From: Phycisphaeraceae bacterium
GTDB lineage: Bacteria; Planctomycetota; Phycisphaerae; Phycisphaerales; SM1A02
Assembly: GCA_019636735.1 (NCBI GenBank)
Contig: JAHBWY010000005.1
Span: forward strand, 216,117-280,116
DNA length: 64,000 nucleotides
Direction: 5' to 3'
In this document: in pieces, positions 5,647 to 21,922 of the stretch
Layout: every line of letters starts with the position of its first letter
How positions within the stretch are numbered: the first letter of the stretch is position 1
Translations under genes and position numbers: made by a program
The notes under the pieces: model-generated
What the model saw: only the letters and a program-made list of their open reading frames with translations
Database searches by the model: none
Told to the model about the DNA's origin: nothing

Positions 5647-6762
5647 TCACTTTACATCCTCGGCCTCGCCGAGCCTGTAACTGGTGCTCCTACCGCCGCC
5701 GGGGTTCTGGACCAGGATGCCGCGCTCCAGCAGTTCCCGGATATCGCGCAGAGCGGTATCCGGCGAGCATTTTGCCAGCTTCGCGTACTTCGAGGTCGAG
5801 AGGAACCCCTCGAATCCGTTCAGCATCCGGTTGATCACCAGCCGCTGCCGGTCATTGACAGGTCGCCGGTTGATCCGCTGCCACATGCGGGCCTTGTTGA
5901 GGACGGCGCCAAGCGTCCCATCCGCGCCGTCGATGGCGCGATCAAGACAGCCCAGGAACCACTCCAGCCAACTCGTGATGTTCGCGTCGCCGCGCTGCGC
6001 CGACTCCAGCCGCAGGTAGTAGTCCTTTCGATCCGCCTCAATCTGCGACGACATGCTGTAGAAGCGGTCCCGCGTACCGTCGGCGCGCGTGAGCGCCATG
6101 TCGGCGATGGCCCTGGCGATGCGCCCGTTGCCGTCCTCGAACGGGTGGATCGTCACGAACCAGAAATGGGCAATCCCGGCTTTCAGCACCGGGTCTATCG
6201 CCGGCGACGCATTGAACCACTTGATGAGGCGTGACATTTCTGCTTCAAGACTGTCCGCCGCCGGCGCCTCGAAGTGCACCTTCTCCCGGCCCGTCGGCCC
6301 GGAGACGACCTGCATCGCCCCGGATTCCCTTTTCCTCCACGCCCCAACGGTGATGCGGTTCATGCCGCTTCGGCCGGTTGGAAAGAGCGATGCGTGCCAA
6401 TCGAAGAGCCGCTTCTTCGTCAGTGGCTTTTCATAGTTCCGCGTGCCGTCGAGCATCATCTCGACGACGCCCTCGACATCGCGGCCCGCCTTCGGCAGTC
6501 CCGCCACATCGAGCCCCAGCCGCAGCGCGATCGACGAACGGACCTCATCCGGGTTCAGCTTCTCGCCCTCGATGGCGGAGGACTTCACCACATCGCTGGT
6601 CAGGACGGCAAGGCTTGCTTCGGCTCGCAGGTCGAACCCCAGGGCCTCCATCTTGCCGAGCAGGCGGCCCTGCTTGTGCCGCACGGCCGCCAACTGGCTG
6701 GCGAGGGCCTCGCCGTCCCAGGTGAACTCGGGCCAACCCGGCTTCTCGTGGATGTACGCCAT
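5647..6762 (-). CDS. Fic-domain AMPylase-like protein with DUF4172 N-terminus and winged-helix C-terminus
   Basis: 371 residues from the ATG at 6762. A GGAG lies 4 nt upstream, and an open frame extends further upstream without a better RBS. The N-terminal part (AYIHEKPGWPEFTWDGEAL) is of DUF4172 type. It is followed by SSAIEGE, a class II inhibitory helix motif (S/T-x-x-x-E-G/N), then the catalytic HPFEDGNGRIARA (His, Asp/Gly/Asn and Arg of the Fic motif intact). The C-terminal 80 residues resemble a winged helix (KYAKLAKCSPDTALRDIREL). Proteins of this build transfer AMP to Ser/Thr/Tyr of target proteins. The bound targets cannot be read from sequence. The gene lies between the cas operon and the CRISPR array and is transcribed away from the array. 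Two identical dyads in its 5' region suggest autoregulation by the winged helix. Confidence 0.92.
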   Translation of the reverse strand: MAYIHEKPGWPEFTWDGEALASQLAAVRHKQGRLLGKMEALGFDLRAEASLAVLTSDVVKSSAIEGEKLNPDEVRSSIALRLGLDVAGLPKAGRDVEGVVEMMLDGTRNYEKPLTKKRLFDWHASLFPTGRSGMNRITVGAWRKRESGAMQVVSGPTGREKVHFEAPAADSLEAEMSRLIKWFNASPAIDPVLKAGIAHFWFVTIHPFEDGNGRIARAIADMALTRADGTRDRFYSMSSQIEADRKDYYLRLESAQRGDANITSWLEWFLGCLDRAIDGADGTLGAVLNKARMWQRINRRPVNDRQRLVINRMLNGFEGFLSTSKYAKLAKCSPDTALRDIRELLERGILVQNPGGGRSTSYRLGEAEDVK

Positions 6763-14574: not shown

Positions 14575-16119
14575 TCAATACGCCTTCGCGAAGATGACGC
14601 GCTTCTGTGCAGGCTGCCCAGTAATGACACACGGTCCGGGATCATCCGCGCCCTCGAGCGGAATGCAGCGCACGGTCACGCCGAGCCGCTCCTTCACCTC
14701 GGCCTCCACCTTGGGGTCGAGGCAGAATCGGGCGAGCGCAAAGCCGCCGTGTATGTCCGGGGGCGAGTTCTCATCGGCCTGCCTCTTCGGCGTGAAGAAC
14801 GCCTCGAACTCGGTGCGGTCGTCGATCTTCCGCGTGTGCTGATCGCGGAATGCGCTCGCCCGAGCCATCAGGCTGTACTGGATCTCGTCGAGAATCTCGG
14901 CGCAGCGCTCGATGAACTCGGCGCGCTTCACGCCCACCTTTTCCTTGGGACCCTTGTCGCGCCGCGCCATGAAGACCGAGTCCTGCTCCATGTCGCGCGG
15001 CCCCACTTCGAGACGGATCGGTGCGCCGCGCTTGATCCACTGCCACGCCTTGTCGCCGCCGGGAAGGTCGCGCGCATCAACTTCGACCTCGATATCACGA
15101 TCGCCATGGCGCCGCCTCCGCAACTCCGCCGCGAGTTCGTGACACCACTTCAGAATCTGCTCGCGCAGCTCGGGCTTGTGCAGCACCGGCAGGATCACCA
15201 CATGCGTCGGCGCGAGCTTCGGCGGCACGATCATGCCGTCATCATCGCCGTGGGTCATGATCAAGCCGCCGACCAGGCGCGTGCTCACACCCCAGCTCGT
15301 GGTCCAGGCGTGTTGCAACTGCCCCTGCGTGTCGAGGAATCTGATTTCACTCGCCTTGGCGAAGTTCTGGCCGAGGAAGTGGCTCGTGCCCGCCTGCAGC
15401 GCCTTGCGGTCCTGCATCATCGACTCGATGCAGAAGGTCTCGACGGCCCCCGGGAACCGCTCGGCGGGAGTCTTGACGCCCTTGATGACCGGCATCGCCA
15501 TGAAATCGCGTGCGAAAGTCTCATAGACATCGAGCATGCGGCGCGTGTGCTCCATCGCCTCTTCGGCGCTCGCGTGGGCGGTGTGTCCCTCCTGCCAGAG
15601 GAACTCGGCCGTTCTCAGGAACAGTCGCGTGCGCATCTCCCAGCGGACCACATTGGCCCATTGATTGATGAGCAGCGGCAGATCGCGCCAGCTCTGCACC
15701 CACTTGGCGAAGGTGGCGCCGATGATCGTCTCGCTCGTCGGCCGCACCACGAGCGGCTCCTCGAGTTCACCCGTGGGAACAAGCTTGCCGTCCTTGCCCG
15801 CTTCCAGCCGATGGTGCGTGACCACCGCGCACTCCTTGGCGAATCCTTCCACATGCTCCGCCTCCTTCTCGAGGAACGAGAGCGGAATGAAGAGCGGGAA
15901 GTAGGCGTTCTTGTGGCCCGTGTCCTTGAACATCCGGTCGAGCGCCCGCTGGATGTTCTCCCAGATCGCATAGCCCCACGGCTTGATGACCATGCAGCCG
16001 CGCACGGGCGACGGCTCGGCGAGTTCCGCCGCGCGAACGACCTGCTGGTACCACTCCGCGTAGTTCTCCTCGCGCGTGGGGGAAATAGCTGTCTGCGGCT
16101 TGCCGCCCTTCTGGCTCAT
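14575..16119 (-). CDS. proS: Proline-tRNA ligase, archaeal/eukaryotic-like class
   Basis: 514 residues. It is a class II aminoacyl-tRNA synthetase charging tRNA-Pro. Class II motifs are visible: motif 2 in LLINQWANVVRWEMR, the PTSETIIGATFAKWV segment and the C-terminal anticodon-binding region from THVVILPVL. There is no editing (INS) insertion between motifs 2 and 3. The protein ends in an aromatic IFAKAY like the short eukaryotic-type enzymes, so this belongs to the ProS type 3 group rather than the long bacterial type. It lies 5 nt downstream of the CHAD gene on the same strand, which suggests co-transcription. Confidence 0.95.
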   Translation of the reverse strand: MSQKGGKPQTAISPTREENYAEWYQQVVRAAELAEPSPVRGCMVIKPWGYAIWENIQRALDRMFKDTGHKNAYFPLFIPLSFLEKEAEHVEGFAKECAVVTHHRLEAGKDGKLVPTGELEEPLVVRPTSETIIGATFAKWVQSWRDLPLLINQWANVVRWEMRTRLFLRTAEFLWQEGHTAHASAEEAMEHTRRMLDVYETFARDFMAMPVIKGVKTPAERFPGAVETFCIESMMQDRKALQAGTSHFLGQNFAKASEIRFLDTQGQLQHAWTTSWGVSTRLVGGLIMTHGDDDGMIVPPKLAPTHVVILPVLHKPELREQILKWCHELAAELRRRRHGDRDIEVEVDARDLPGGDKAWQWIKRGAPIRLEVGPRDMEQDSVFMARRDKGPKEKVGVKRAEFIERCAEILDEIQYSLMARASAFRDQHTRKIDDRTEFEAFFTPKRQADENSPPDIHGGFALARFCLDPKVEAEVKERLGVTVRCIPLEGADDPGPCVITGQPAQKRVIFAKAY

Positions 16120-16124
16120 GTCGG

Positions 16125-17078
16125 TCAGCTCCTCAAGTCCGCCACCGCAGCCGCTGGCCGCGAATGAGCGGATCGACGAGCGTACTCGGAAGCGGTGCGC
16201 TCGATGAGGCGGCGAACTTCGCTCCCAGGCATGCGCAGCGCCCGCCGTCCGGCCTTCCGCGCCTGGGCCAGAGCCGCACGATGTTCGCGCTCAAGCAGCC
16301 TGCGAAGAGTCTTGAGCTTCGCCTCCGGCGGTGCGATCACGCCACCGGTGCGGGCGAGGAGAAGTCCCGTGTCCCTCGCCATGCCGAGCGCTTCGCCAGC
16401 GTCCGCCAGGCCCTCGCGGACCTTCCCGAACCGCTTCGGTCGCCACGACTCCAACAGCATCACCTGGTAGTGAAGACGCTGGCATCGCTTGCGCGTTTCA
16501 TGAAGCCACTCCGCATTCTTCCGCTGCCACGCGCCCTGAAAGCGCCGACGCGCTCGCTCCCAACTGCGTTCGAAGCCCTCTGCGAGGACGGCCGGAGTGA
16601 GTCGAGCGAGCCGGACATGGCTCCAGAGCCTGCGGATTGCCAGCAACCTCGACTTGATGTCCGCGACCGCGCGCTCCGGTCGCCCAGCCGTGCGGCTGAC
16701 CGCAGACGGCAGGAGCAGCGCCCGCCACTTGGCGAGCACCGAAGCGCGCGTCGCCTTCGGCAACTTCCGCGCCACTTGCGCCAGGACCGCGCTCAGTGCG
16801 TCGCGGTCCCGCACACGGGAGAGCGCCCGCGATGACTCGCGGAAGGCATTGCGCAGCAGGATGACGGCGCCTGAGTCCCCACCATGCCGCGCGAGATCGA
16901 GCGCCGCGCGGACCCGCTTGGTCGCCTTCCTGAAGCCATGCACCGCCGAGCCGCGCCGTTCACTCGGCCACGCGAGCGCAGCTTCAAGCACCGCCAGCGC
17001 CAACTCCACCTGCTCAGCGGAGGCATGCTGAAGGGCAGCCCCGGGAGCCTGCCGCGGGTCCAGCCGGAAGGGAGCCAT
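16125..17078 (-). CDS. CHAD-domain protein
   Basis: 317 residues. CHAD domains are helical bundles rich in conserved His and basic residues and are linked to polyphosphate binding. Here the pattern is VHGFRKATKRVRAALDLAR near residue 46 and WLHETRKRCQRLHYQVMLLE near residue 210. These are the two H-x-x-R-(K/V)-x-x-(K/R)-R repeats. No CYTH triphosphatase domain is attached. The predicted protein is soluble and very basic. It precedes proS by 5 nt. Upstream lies a divergent region with a 69-bp direct repeat. Confidence 0.85.
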   Translation of the reverse strand: MAPFRLDPRQAPGAALQHASAEQVELALAVLEAALAWPSERRGSAVHGFRKATKRVRAALDLARHGGDSGAVILLRNAFRESSRALSRVRDRDALSAVLAQVARKLPKATRASVLAKWRALLLPSAVSRTAGRPERAVADIKSRLLAIRRLWSHVRLARLTPAVLAEGFERSWERARRRFQGAWQRKNAEWLHETRKRCQRLHYQVMLLESWRPKRFGKVREGLADAGEALGMARDTGLLLARTGGVIAPPEAKLKTLRRLLEREHRAALAQARKAGRRALRMPGSEVRRLIERTASEYARRSAHSRPAAAVADLRS

Positions 17079-17117
17079 GCCTCGATGCTACCGCTCCGGG
17101 CCCGCACCACACGCCGC

Positions 17118-17286
17118 GGAATCCGCATGGGATGCAGCGCCACTCAGCAGCACGGTCACGCTCGCCGGACCGGCTGCAATGGGCAGGGAATCCGCACGCG
17201 ACGCAGAGCTGCTCCGGGGCACGGTCACGCTCGCCGAACCGGCTGCAATGAGCCGGGACTCCACACGGGATGCAGCACCACTCCGA
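17118..17286. repeat. 69-bp direct repeat, two full copies and a partial third
   Basis: Copies begin with GGAATCCGC at 17118 and 17187, and GGACTCCAC at 17256. The exact period is 69 bp. The best conserved core in copies 1 and 2 is CACGGTCACGCTCGCC followed by CGGCTGCAATG. The third copy is truncated after about 31 bp. The repeat fills the region between the divergent CHAD and ion-channel genes. The period is a multiple of three, so all frames give 23-residue repeats, but none continues into a recognised protein. A regulatory or minisatellite origin is more likely. Confidence 0.9.
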
Positions 17287-17330
17287 GGCCTCCGCAGTCG
17301 GCATCGATCGGCGAAGATAGCTCGCTGATC

Positions 17331-18257
17331 ATGCTCGCCCACCACCTTCATCGAATCGTCGAATCCCACTGGTTCCAACGGACCATCCTCGGGGTCATCC
17401 TTCTGGCCGCGATCGTCGTCGGTCTCGAGACCTACCCGGCCGTGATGGCGGAGTGGGGCGGGCTGCTCCACGCTCTTGATCGAATCATCATCGGAATCTT
17501 CGTCATCGAGGCGCTCATGAAGATGGGTGCGCTCCTTCCGAGGCCGTGGCGCTACTTCCGCGACCCGTGGAATTGCTTCGACTTCACCATCGTGGTGCTC
17601 TGCCTCATTCCGGCGGTGGGTCCCTATGCGGCGATTGCGCGACTCGCGCGAGTGCTGCGAGCGCTGCGGCTCATCACCACGGTGCCGAAGCTTCAGATCA
17701 TCGTCAGCAGCCTGCTGAAGGGTCTCCCCTCGATGGGCTATGTGGGTCTGCTGCTGCTTCTGCTCTTCTATGTCTATGGAGTCCTCGGGGTCTTCCTCTT
17801 CCGGAGCAACGATCCCCTGCACTTCCGCGACCTTCAGACTTCGCTCATCACGATGTTCCGCGTGGTCACGCTCGAGGACTGGACCGATGTCCTCTACATC
17901 CAGATGCACGGCTCGGCGCTCTATGTCGGCTATGACGAGCTGAATCACACCGGGCTCACCGCCATCTCGAAGGCGCAGCCGCTTGCCGCGGTTCTCTTCT
18001 TCGTGAGCTTCGTGCTGCTCGGGACCATCGTGATTCTCAACCTCGTGATCGGCGTCATCATCTCCTCGATGGACGAGGCGCAGCATGAACGGGAGCAGGC
18101 GATGCTCAAGGCGCAGCGCGAGAAGGGCGTCGCGATGTCCGCGGCGGAGGAGCTTCGCCTGCTCGAACACGAGCTTGGAACGCTCATGAACTCCCTCTCG
18201 GCGATCCGGCGGCGCGTGGGCGATGAGCGCCCACCGCCCCCGTCACGCGAGGCGTGA
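17331..18257 (+). CDS. Voltage-gated cation channel of the bacterial NaChBac/BacNaV family
   Basis: 308 residues from the ATG at 17331. A longer open frame upstream runs through the 69-bp repeats and is not credible. It has six membrane segments. S4 carries arginines every third residue (R104, R107, R110, R113 in ARLARVLRALRLI). The pore loop contains the selectivity filter TLEDWTD (180-186). S6 (LLGTIVILNLVIGVIIS) is followed by a charged C-terminal helix (about 245-295), as in tetrameric BacNaV channels. The family conducts Na+ or, with extra acidic filter residues, Ca2+. The Asp residues at the fourth and seventh filter positions match the engineered Ca2+-selective CavAb filter more than the NavAb TLESWSM. 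The 3' end overlaps the convergent next gene by 15 bp. Confidence 0.9.
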   Translation: MLAHHLHRIVESHWFQRTILGVILLAAIVVGLETYPAVMAEWGGLLHALDRIIIGIFVIEALMKMGALLPRPWRYFRDPWNCFDFTIVVLCLIPAVGPYAAIARLARVLRALRLITTVPKLQIIVSSLLKGLPSMGYVGLLLLLLFYVYGVLGVFLFRSNDPLHFRDLQTSLITMFRVVTLEDWTDVLYIQMHGSALYVGYDELNHTGLTAISKAQPLAAVLFFVSFVLLGTIVILNLVIGVIISSMDEAQHEREQAMLKAQREKGVAMSAAEELRLLEHELGTLMNSLSAIRRRVGDERPPPPSREA

Positions 18258-20162
18258 GAAACGCCGGCTCGATGCCGGAAAGTCAACCCCCATGGCGAAG
18301 GCGTGCAGCACGAATGCGACCAGCGCCACAGCCACCACGCCGGCGGTGAGGCGCGGCGTGGGCCAGGGCGCACCATCGGCCGGAAGCATCATGACCATGG
18401 CCCCGATCAGCACCATGCCGATCGAGAGCCATTGATAGAGCCGAAGGCCGCCAATGACCGGCGTGTGCGGCTCGCCTCGAAAGGCCTCTTCGACGAAACG
18501 GCTCATGCCCGCGAGCACGAAGTACGCGCCGATGATGATGACGATCGGCGCCCTCAGGAGCGCCAGGCGCAGCAGCATGGCGCCAAGCAAGGCATTGGCC
18601 ACCATCGAATAGAACGGCGTGGCGTGAATCGGCACCGCGCGAAGTGATGAGAGTCGAACGACACGCGACTGTTCATTCACACAGCGGATCCCGAGCCACG
18701 CGCGATCACTCGGAACGGGAGCGCCGTGGCAACACCCCTGGACCAGACAGCGTTTGCGCCCGATGAGTTGCACCCATGGAGCCGCGACGGCGGCGGCTGC
18801 GGCGAGCGTCCCAATCTCCACGCCAGTCGCCCACGCCACGAGCGCCACACTTCCCACACCCACCACACTTCCGAAGTACCCGAAGGGCCGAAGCGAGGTC
18901 GGCCTTCCCACCACCATCTGCCCCCAGATGGCAGCACCCACGAGTGACGCGATCATGAGCGCCGCGATCCATGCAAGGTCTCCGCCAGCCACGAGCGTGC
19001 CCGTGATGAGAACTCCGACGGCCGCCGCCACTCCCGCGAAGACACCGTGATTGATGATTCGAACGGGTCCGACCTGCCACGCACGCCAACTGTTGGCGAG
19101 GCGCTCCACTGATCGACGCAACAGGCTCCACACTCGATCGATGCGCCACGACACGAAGAAGAGGAGCGCTCCTGCGACGAGGTCGACCACGGCGTGCATG
19201 CCCGTCATGACACACGCGATCACGGCGATGGTGGCCCACGCGCCGACAAGGAGTCGCGGCCAGCGCGACGCAAGCAGCGCCGCCGTCAACAGCGTCCAGA
19301 AGACATGGAACGATGGGAACGCCGCCCTGCCGTCGAGACCATCAGCTCGCTCCCACATGAGCAAGTGTCCAGCCACCGACGAAGGCTCAAAGTCGCGCGG
19401 CGGGGCGATGAACGGAACGACGAGGTACGCCGTCATACCGAGCGCAGTCCCCCACCACCCGGTCACCATGAAGCGACGAAGCGCTGCCGATGACGGCGCC
19501 ACGAACGGCGCGACGATCGCGGCGAGGTAGACGCTCGCATAGGGCCACTCGGCCCACTCAAAGACCGGCCAGTGGCGCTCCGGGCCAAGGCGCACATCGA
19601 TGCCATCGGGCACTGGCAGATGCCCGATCCACTCATAGAGCACCAGCCACGGCAGGTAGAGTCGGAAGAAGACCGCCGCACGGTGTCGCGGGCGCGGCGG
19701 GCCGGCGGAGTCCGGCGGAAGCGCCCAGAGTGACGGCTCGCGATTGCGACCGAAGCGACGATCGAGATCGGCGGCTTCATAGCCCATGACGATCGCGATG
19801 CAGCCGAGCGACGCGAGCGGCGTGATGATCCAGAAGCCCGCGGCCGAACTCGACGCGATCGCCACACCCGCCGTCGCCATGACGAACCCGAGATAGATCG
19901 GATGATCGAGCGCTCGGTACGGCCCGCGCCGCATGAAGCGCGGCGGCGGAAAGGCGTTCATCGGAAGACCGCCACCGAGACGCCAGAGCACGAGCATCGA
20001 CCACGCCATGAGCGTCACACCGGCCGCGATCAGCGATCCGCCGGCGAGCGGCGAACAGAGCGCCGGGAGTTGCACGATCGCATCGAGTCGTTGCGCCAAC
20101 ACCACGAGCAGCAGCGGAATCGCCACGACGAAGAGGGCGCCGTAGAGCACGCGCGCCATCAC
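18243..20162 (-). CDS. Three-part membrane lipid enzyme: ICMT/PEMT-like, PAP2-like and Lgt-like domains
   Basis: 639 residues, very hydrophobic throughout. Residues 1-150 resemble isoprenylcysteine/phospholipid methyltransferases (GPYRALDHPIYLGF at 80-93). Residues 165-345 resemble the PAP2/inositolphosphotransferase superfamily (AFPSFHVFW at 281-289 and TGMHAVVDLVAG at 320-331 supply the two phosphatase histidines and Asp). Residues 365-639 resemble prolipoprotein diacylglyceryl transferase (GCCHGAP at 476, HATPFYSM at 513 and RFVEEAFRGEP at 555). Each unit acts on membrane lipids or lipidated substrates. The combined reaction is unknown. The start overlaps the stop of the upstream gene by 4 nt (20159-20162), so the two are coupled. 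Domain boundaries are estimates. Confidence 0.75.
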   Translation of the reverse strand: MMARVLYGALFVVAIPLLLVVLAQRLDAIVQLPALCSPLAGGSLIAAGVTLMAWSMLVLWRLGGGLPMNAFPPPRFMRRGPYRALDHPIYLGFVMATAGVAIASSSAAGFWIITPLASLGCIAIVMGYEAADLDRRFGRNREPSLWALPPDSAGPPRPRHRAAVFFRLYLPWLVLYEWIGHLPVPDGIDVRLGPERHWPVFEWAEWPYASVYLAAIVAPFVAPSSAALRRFMVTGWWGTALGMTAYLVVPFIAPPRDFEPSSVAGHLLMWERADGLDGRAAFPSFHVFWTLLTAALLASRWPRLLVGAWATIAVIACVMTGMHAVVDLVAGALLFFVSWRIDRVWSLLRRSVERLANSWRAWQVGPVRIINHGVFAGVAAAVGVLITGTLVAGGDLAWIAALMIASLVGAAIWGQMVVGRPTSLRPFGYFGSVVGVGSVALVAWATGVEIGTLAAAAAVAAPWVQLIGRKRCLVQGCCHGAPVPSDRAWLGIRCVNEQSRVVRLSSLRAVPIHATPFYSMVANALLGAMLLRLALLRAPIVIIIGAYFVLAGMSRFVEEAFRGEPHTPVIGGLRLYQWLSIGMVLIGAMVMMLPADGAPWPTPRLTAGVVAVALVAFVLHAFAMGVDFPASSRRFSRLA

Positions 20163-20944
20163 CGTGCGGTCTCACTGCGCATGATGACGCGCTCATGCAC
20201 GGCCCAGCCGGGTGTCGCGCGCCCACCGCCCTGCATCAGGCGCCCCGCGCTCAGCCACTTCGTCTCCTCGACGCTTCGAAGACTCGCAGGCAAGACGCAG
20301 CGCAGAAGCGGCGTCGAGCGAAGCACCGTCGTACCAAGCGTGCCGCTCCGCAATGTCGTCGGGGCATCAAGGTCGAGCACGCATCGAGCCGACTCGACTC
20401 GATCGAGTCCGATGTCGGCGCCCCGCGTCACTTCACCATCGAGCACGAGGAGTGAGAGCGGACTCTGGCCCGACCAGCGGATCCACACCGCGCCCGCGCC
20501 ATCGCCGCAGAAGCGCCCCCATTGCAGTTCATCGATCGGCAGCTTCCACGGCGGAATGGAGAGCTCCAGGCGCTCGGCATATCCCCAGCCCTCGATGCGC
20601 TCATCGCCGACCTCGACCACCGCCCTTGACCGTGGATGCACACAATGCCAGCGGACCGCGCCGGGCGCCGAGGGAAGAAGATCACACTCAACGGCGGGCG
20701 CGGCGCGGTCCCACTCGCCGCGCACCTGCAAGTGCGGATGCGTCCAAGCGAGCGTTGTCCCCTGCTCCTGCGGTGCCGAACTCCTGCGGCGTGAGCGCCA
20801 TTCGCGAGGCGCTCCCTCGGGTCCGACCGTGAGCACGCTCGACCACCGAAAGTGACAGCCCATCCAGTTGAGTGACGCCCAGTAAAGGAGCGCACAGCGC
20901 CCGTCGATGCTGGTCGCGTCCATGTACCACTTGGTGAGATGCAT
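20159..20944 (-). CDS. Conserved-looking hypothetical protein, not recognised
   Basis: 261 residues, soluble, rich in Trp and beta-forming residues, with no signal peptide or membrane segment. Visible blocks are HLTKWYMDATSIDGRCALLY at the start, RWHCVHPRSRAVVEV, and LQWGRFCGDGAGAVWIRWSG in the middle. The repeated Trp-rich strands suggest a lipocalin or carotenoid-hydratase-like beta fold, but I do not recognise a family. It lies between a UbiA prenyltransferase (9 nt upstream) and the lipid-enzyme fusion (4-nt overlap downstream). A role with isoprenoid or lipid chemistry is therefore a reasonable guess only. Confidence 0.6.
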   Translation of the reverse strand: MHLTKWYMDATSIDGRCALLYWASLNWMGCHFRWSSVLTVGPEGAPREWRSRRRSSAPQEQGTTLAWTHPHLQVRGEWDRAAPAVECDLLPSAPGAVRWHCVHPRSRAVVEVGDERIEGWGYAERLELSIPPWKLPIDELQWGRFCGDGAGAVWIRWSGQSPLSLLVLDGEVTRGADIGLDRVESARCVLDLDAPTTLRSGTLGTTVLRSTPLLRCVLPASLRSVEETKWLSAGRLMQGGGRATPGWAVHERVIMRSETAR

Positions 20945-20953
20945 GGAGTGAGC

Positions 20954-21922
20954 TCAGCCAGCCAGCAGCACGCCCACAATGCCTGCCGCTCCCAGCAGCA
21001 GTGAGACGCACCCATTGATGGTGAAGAAGGTGAGCGCCATGCGCGAGGTGCCCCAGCGTCGCACCGTGGCGTGCTCGACAAGCAGGAGCAGCGACGCAGC
21101 CACGACTGCGGCCGCGAAGATGACTCCGAGCCGCACATCGCTCCACCACGCCATCACGAGCGACGCGACCGCCACCGCATGGAGCGAGCGGCTCATGGCG
21201 AGTGCGCCGCCCCATCCGAAGCGCGCCGGCACGCTGTGCAGCCGCTCCGCCCGGTCAACCTCGATGTCCTGCAGCGCGTAAATCACATCGAACCCCGCCA
21301 CCCACGCGAGCACCGCCAGCGCCAGCCACCAGATCGATGGCATGGCGAGTGCCGCGGGATCGACCGCGAGCGCAGCGGCGGGCACACTCAGGGCGAGACT
21401 CGCTCCGAGCCACAAGTGGCACGCCCAGGTGAAGCGCTTGAAGAGCCCGTACAGCGTGATCCACGCGAGCACCGGCAGCGAGAGGAGCAGCGGCCACCAG
21501 TTGTCGCGCAGCACGCCGAACGCTCCGCAGACCGCGATGAACCCCGCCGACGAGAGCACAAGAAGGAGCGCCGCATCGCGCTTCGACACCCGGCCTGCGG
21601 GAATCGCGCGCCCCTTCGTGCGCGGGTTTCGTGCATCGAGGTCGGCGTCGAGCAGCCGATTGGCGATCATCGCCGCGGTGCGCGCGGTGACCATCGCCGC
21701 AACGACCAGCGCCACCAGCGTGAGCGCATCGACCCAGGTGTTCGACGCTGCGGTGAGCGCGGGAATTGCATCGCTGGCCGCAGCGCGCGAGTCAGGAGCG
21801 TGACCCGCGGGCGGTCGCAGTGCCATCACCGCGCCGAGCAACGCGAACGGCAGTGCAAAGACACTGTGCGCCAGCTTGATGTCCCCCGCGACAACCCGAA
21901 CTCGATGGATGATCGTCGTCAC
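20954..21922 (-). CDS. UbiA-family polyprenyltransferase (MqnP-like)
   Basis: 322 residues with about eight membrane helices. It would start with GTG at 21922. UbiA enzymes attach polyprenyl chains to aromatic rings. The first Asp-rich motif is NRLLDADLDARNPRTKGR and the second is DVIYALQDIEVDRAERLHSVP, both intact. The FxVIYALQDxExDR form of the second motif is common in the UbiA-like enzymes of organisms using the futalosine menaquinone route. Quinone synthesis is therefore the likely job, with UbiX at 13884 possibly in the same pathway. The downstream genes follow closely on the same strand. Confidence 0.88.
   Translation of the reverse strand: MTTIIHRVRVVAGDIKLAHSVFALPFALLGAVMALRPPAGHAPDSRAAASDAIPALTAASNTWVDALTLVALVVAAMVTARTAAMIANRLLDADLDARNPRTKGRAIPAGRVSKRDAALLLVLSSAGFIAVCGAFGVLRDNWWPLLLSLPVLAWITLYGLFKRFTWACHLWLGASLALSVPAAALAVDPAALAMPSIWWLALAVLAWVAGFDVIYALQDIEVDRAERLHSVPARFGWGGALAMSRSLHAVAVASLVMAWWSDVRLGVIFAAAVVAASLLLLVEHATVRRWGTSRMALTFFTINGCVSLLLGAAGIVGVLLAG

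Follow-up and report, generated by a model that had tools for sequence, protein, structure and literature searches.

A conserved pair of genes in the window, the whole 64,000-nucleotide stretch of DNA analysed here, encodes a membrane protein composed of three well-conserved enzyme domains and its obligate partner. The two genes probably belong together in function, and the reading that we favour, with a probability of about 45%, is that they form a conserved module for tailoring a small-molecule membrane lipid. A multi-phylum, strongly conserved two-gene unit with three active sites points to an unrecognised membrane lipid or lipid modification.

Domain architecture and distribution of the fusion protein

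The fusion gene lies on the minus strand at 18243..20162, starts with GTG and encodes 639 residues; the plus strand of this interval is interrupted by stops. The methyltransferase domain (residues 40-135; 19758..20045, minus strand) is defined by Pfam PEMT and conservation, the PAP2_3 domain (residues 203-340; 19143..19556, minus strand) by Pfam, conservation and a fold match, and the Lgt-like domain (residues 363-592; 18387..19076, minus strand), with a predicted inverted topology, by Pfam and by profile and fold comparison. The view of the earlier note that three membrane-lipid enzyme types are joined in one chain is borne out by Pfam-A, in which the PEMT (33.8 bits against a cut-off of 25), PAP2_3 (PF14378; 50.9 against 27) and LGT (PF01790; 52.4 against 24.9) matches do not overlap one another and all exceed the gathering score. 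LGT and PEMT are matched in 41 of 41 aligned fusion members and PAP2_3 in 39 of 41. The AlphaFold2 model, built from 41 locus sequences, has a mean pLDDT of 91 and a pTM of 0.91. A Foldseek search of the PDB with this model returned Lgt 5azb first (E=3e-5), together with the membrane IPC synthase 9vj4 (probability 1.0), the SMS-related protein (SMSr) 8ijq (0.99) and Aur1 9ivc (0.97). No solved structure similar to the fusion was found by sequence alone, and no characterised relative was found in the PDB, NCBIfam or the literature searched, in agreement with the remark of the earlier note that no characterised protein is known to have such a domain set. Literature searches for the triple-domain architecture yielded no description of it or of what the fusion makes; Lgt and PAP2 both appear in the lipocone paper, but each separately only.

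A scan of the genome collection confirmed 115 relatives, and 80 loci were kept. These loci encode the same three domains, and nearly all of them match the fusion over its full length with 33-52% identity. They are distributed over about ten phyla, including Planctomycetota, Acidobacteriota, Bacteroidota, Gemmatimonadota, Myxococcota, Verrucomicrobiota and Pseudomonadota, and the cultured, non-pathogenic Minicystis rosea and Actibacterium atlanticum are among the carriers. Since near-full-length relatives occur at 80 loci of many phyla, a chance fusion or an assembly artefact is ruled out. The distribution is wide but patchy: a full-length fusion is present in 5 of 61 genomes in a sample of relatives, and among the best matches in 246 sampled Planctomycetota genomes a full-length match comes from the window's own genome only. 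The fusion tree follows the phyla for the most part, suggesting that the family is old and has undergone losses and a degree of transfer; a few rows are misplaced, and MAG binning errors may lie behind them. A search for plasmid-borne copies of the fusion found no match. At one locus (L023), an in-frame stop at 5688-5690 splits the fusion gene within the PAP2 domain, indicating either a pseudogene or an assembly error.

Active sites and predicted membrane topology

The active-site motifs seen by the earlier note in each domain consist of catalytic-type residues that are kept at 89-100% across 82 sequences, including the key His and Cys residues on whose conservation among homologues that note had made its proposal depend (H87, 89%; H286, 97%; H323, 98%; C472, C477 and C478, 100%). 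Since about ten phyla have retained all three sites, all three domains are under selection, and degenerate domains are ruled out by this conservation.

The methyltransferase domain contains the conserved motifs GLPMNxxPP and HPIYxG (H87) and the residue E129, and P88, Y90, G92 and E129 are kept at 98% in the same 82 sequences. It belongs to PEMT (PF04191) both by profile and by the SAM-site His-Pro-x-Tyr-x-Gly plus Glu. A methyltransferase is thus present as predicted earlier, but PEMT rather than ICMT is the scoring family, because the window protein reaches only 14.9 bits against the ICMT (PF04140) cut-off of 24; ICMT is matched in 31 of 41 fusion members at the lax threshold of E<=0.1. Four helices, HPxYxG, a late Glu and a predicted cytosolic site are common to this domain and the PEMT/ICMT membrane SAM methyltransferases (PF04191, PF04140), although here the domain makes up the N-terminus of a fusion protein. 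Methyltransferases acting on many substrates share the PEMT/ICMT fold, and the identity of the substrate therefore does not follow from the family match.

The PAP2 domain carries the motifs FPSFH (H286) and TGMHxxxD (H323 and D327), with P283 kept at 100% and D327 at 98% (82 sequences), and it belongs to the PAP2/IPC synthase type (PF14378) by profile and by its His-His-Asp triad. The model suggests that it is closest in fold to the ceramide phosphotransferases (inositol-phosphorylceramide synthase, SMS-related protein and Aur1) and not to a simple phosphatase. The PAP2-type assignment of the earlier note thus holds, with ceramide/inositol phosphotransferases rather than phosphatases as the nearest folds. 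The likeness to IPC synthase, Aur1 and SMS-related protein is one of fold and motifs: all have the six-helix PAP2 fold, with PS(F/L)H and HxxxD located on the periplasmic/lumenal face, whereas the domain here is embedded between two other enzymes.

The Lgt-like domain reads GRKRCLVQGCCHG at residues 468-480 and RFVEEAFRGE at residues 555-564. R469, R471, C472, C477, C478 and H479 in the former and R555, E558, E559, R562 and E564 in the latter are kept at 100% in 82 sequences, and the signature GRxRCLVQGCCHG is essentially invariant. In agreement with its PF01790 match, hhalign against canonical Lgts gives a probability of 96.8. The domain shares its fold with E. coli Lgt (5azb), and R469, R555, E559 and R562 align with R143, R239, E243 and R246 of true Lgts, so that the signature Arg and the TM6 Arg/Glu pair are invariantly present; R143 and R239 are essential in E. 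coli Lgt (PMC4728403). C472 and C477 occupy the places of N146 and E151, and a Tyr/Phe/Gly region stands at the place of E. coli H103. The domain also differs from Lgt in having GRxRC in place of GRxGN or GRxGC, in missing most of the periplasmic head region, in its shortened GGLxF(Y/H)GG motif and in its fusion to two further enzyme domains. Its score for the Lgt equivalog NF000778 (NCBIfam) is 39.6 bits against a cut-off of 334, and the window's genome encodes a classical Lgt elsewhere, which reads GRLANWVNGELLG and has HGG. By sequence comparison, the Cys motif GRxxCxxxGCCxG is an ordinary one, since this GCC-type signature is also that of many planctomycete Lgts. The loss of H103 together with the gain of Cys is rejected as a mark of a dead Lgt, because the sole detected Lgt of many planctomycete genomes shows the same pattern, reading GRxGCFLNGCCYG without H103. 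How this GCC-type Lgt, alone in many planctomycete genomes (L093-L121), works with H103 replaced seems worth study.

Membrane topology was predicted from the helices of the model and the mean number of Lys and Arg per loop in 41 sequences, and it rests on the positive-inside rule. The loop charges alternate as expected for an N-in, C-in protein with 18 helices, so that the methyltransferase and Lgt-like motifs are predicted to face the cytosol and the PAP2 motifs the periplasm. The control consisted of 19 true Lgts, scored at the equivalent Lgt loops. Loops 1-2, 3-4 and 5-6, which are cytosolic in Lgt, have net charges of +1.3, +3.2 and +2.7 in true Lgts and -0.4, -0.5 and -0.1 in the fusion, whereas loops 2-3 and 6-7, which are periplasmic in Lgt, have -0.6 and -1.6 in true Lgts and +0.9 and +0.1 in the fusion. 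The active site of E. coli Lgt is on the periplasmic face (PMC4728403); because of the consistent charge reversal, that of the Lgt-like domain is predicted to face the cytosol, the domain being inverted relative to Lgt. Such a topology, with two sites cytosolic and the PAP2 site periplasmic, complicates the simple form of the substrate channelling proposed earlier.

The partner gene and its genomic neighbourhood

The partner gene, absent from the earlier note, is the strongest lead to function. It lies upstream of the fusion gene at 20159..20944 on the minus strand, overlaps it by 4 nt (GTGA) and encodes 261 residues with a predicted AttH/CrtC-like lipocalin fold. Wherever a fusion locus has sufficient flanking DNA, a partner homologue is found directly upstream and on the same strand; the three loci that lack it lie at contig ends. 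Among 61 related genomes, the partner profile matches the 5 that contain the fusion and no others, a coincidence with odds of 1 in 5.9 million if the genomes are treated as independent. In one Ignavibacteria locus (L042, 2839-4948), the partner gene is present only in a strongly diverged form, and the gene before it contains a Cys motif like that of radical-SAM proteins (CNRQCVHC).

The motif core of the partner begins a few residues after the start codon and no signal peptide is apparent, suggesting that the protein is probably cytosolic. It belongs to no Pfam family, and no meaningful Pfam match was found among 36 members. Its model (pLDDT 95.7) matches AttH NE1406 (2ich) in Foldseek with E=1.6e-9, a probability of 1.0, a TM score of 0.57 and an rmsd of 7.3, and it also matches fungal pericyclases, kievitone hydratase and 25-phosphosteroid lyase. 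The predicted fold is thus common to the partner and the AttH/CrtC superfamily (NE1406 2ich, kievitone hydratase, Fsa2 and 25-phosphosteroid lyase; PF07143), but sequence-profile similarity is not detectable and the partner has invariant residues of its own, namely K5, D9, W99, G121, Y122, E124, W142, G143, W154 and W157. Membership of the CrtC family by sequence is not supported, as none of the 36 members matches PF07143 and the hhalign probability is 9%. In carotenoid hydratase, one Asp and three Trp residues carry out acid and cation-pi chemistry (PMC12402844). In the partner, Glu124 and Trp99, 142, 154 and 157 are invariant. Since the partner and CrtC-family profiles cannot be aligned, an equal chemistry is only a lead.

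A UbiA-family prenyltransferase gene (TIGR01475, MqnP-like; 20954..21922, minus strand) lies 9 nt upstream of the partner gene and is probably on the same transcript as the pair. Both the window and several Bryobacterales have a UbiA gene ahead of the partner; it is rejected as a fixed member of the module, because it occurs at few loci only and those of the window and of Bryobacterales belong to different subfamilies, and for the latter reason prenyl chemistry is only weakly suggested. The outer neighbours of the pair vary, and no gene for a substrate, product or pathway besides the partner is constantly linked. On the other side, an Ion_trans voltage-gated-type ion channel gene (16884-18257, plus strand; 160 bits) lies tail-to-tail with the fusion gene, with a 15-nt overlap. 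The first ~150 residues of the channel are Arg/His/Gly-rich near-repeats (GHARRTGCN...), suggesting that its true start is probably further in. A prolyl-tRNA synthetase-like ORF (14575-16119, minus strand) and then a CHAD-domain protein (16125-17078, minus strand) are ordinary.

Proposed function of the module and its alternatives

The most economical reading would be a self-sufficient two-gene lipid-tailoring module that acts on both faces of the inner membrane. The soluble, lipocalin-like partner would bind or chemically prime a hydrophobic substrate in the cytosol. The Lgt-like domain would hold an anionic phospholipid with R469, R555 and R562 and may move a glycerolipid moiety onto the substrate at the inner leaflet, and the PEMT/ICMT-like domain would cap the substrate through SAM methylation. 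The IPC-synthase-type domain (H286, H323 and D327) would then exchange or remove a phospho-headgroup on the outer leaflet, thereby trapping the finished lipid there. On present evidence, the module combines known enzyme kinds anew and is not a lipoprotein-lipidating Lgt. A more tentative proposal is that a flipped Lgt-fold enzyme for small-molecule chemistry on the cytosolic face makes up, with the methyltransferase and the trans-side phosphotransferase of the same chain and a dedicated lipocalin-like partner on which it would depend, an undescribed two-gene lipid pathway. If the Lgt-like domain is truly inverted, it shows that the Lgt fold can be put to new use in the cytosol, for reactions other than those of lipoprotein biogenesis. 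Because of its small size, the entire module could be expressed in E. coli and the product looked for directly.

Two alternatives start from the nearest families of single domains. In phospholipid head-group remodelling, the PEMT-like domain would N-methylate an amino head group, the SMS/IPC-type domain would pass the methylated phospho-head group to another lipid, and the Lgt-like domain would only bind the donor. PEMT is indeed the best Pfam match of the N-terminal domain, and the PAP2 domain is nearest in fold to sphingomyelin/IPC synthases, but the lipocalin-like partner and the fully invariant Lgt-like site are left unexplained and the breadth of the PEMT/ICMT fold also weighs against it, so that we give it a minor but appreciable chance. 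It is rather unlikely that the fusion is a second, specialised lipoprotein lipidation enzyme whose Lgt-like domain diacylglycerylates a protein cysteine, with its other domains serving to modify the lipid by-product or to recycle it. The LGT score above the Pfam cut-off speaks for it, as does the GCC-type signature in the sole detected Lgt of many planctomycetes, such sites being presumed active. Nevertheless, the reversed loop charges place the site on the cytosolic face, the periplasmic head region is largely absent and GGLxF(Y/H)GG is shortened, a canonical Lgt is already encoded in the genome, and the constant partner shows neither a lipobox nor a signal peptide; lipid transfer to a lipoprotein, one form of the transfer to a protein envisaged in the earlier note, is unlikely.

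The other two alternatives draw on the partner. A non-catalytic lipid transporter or scaffold made of enzyme folds would fit a protein of 18 predicted helices whose sites lie on the two faces of the membrane, and a lipocalin-like partner could serve as a carrier; the conservation of catalytic-type residues in all three domains is unlike that of a scaffold and makes this quite improbable. In the last alternative, the module would act on a lipid derived from squalene or phytoene (a hopanoid or carotenoid), with the partner as a CrtC-type hydratase, which would fit the carotenoid- and steroid-acting enzymes in the fold group of the partner and the UbiA neighbour at some loci. This is the least probable of the alternatives: the partner profile does not match CrtC sequences, and one genome that is 99% complete (G019) carries the fusion and the partner with no squalene/phytoene synthase match, which argues against a C30/C40 isoprenoid substrate.
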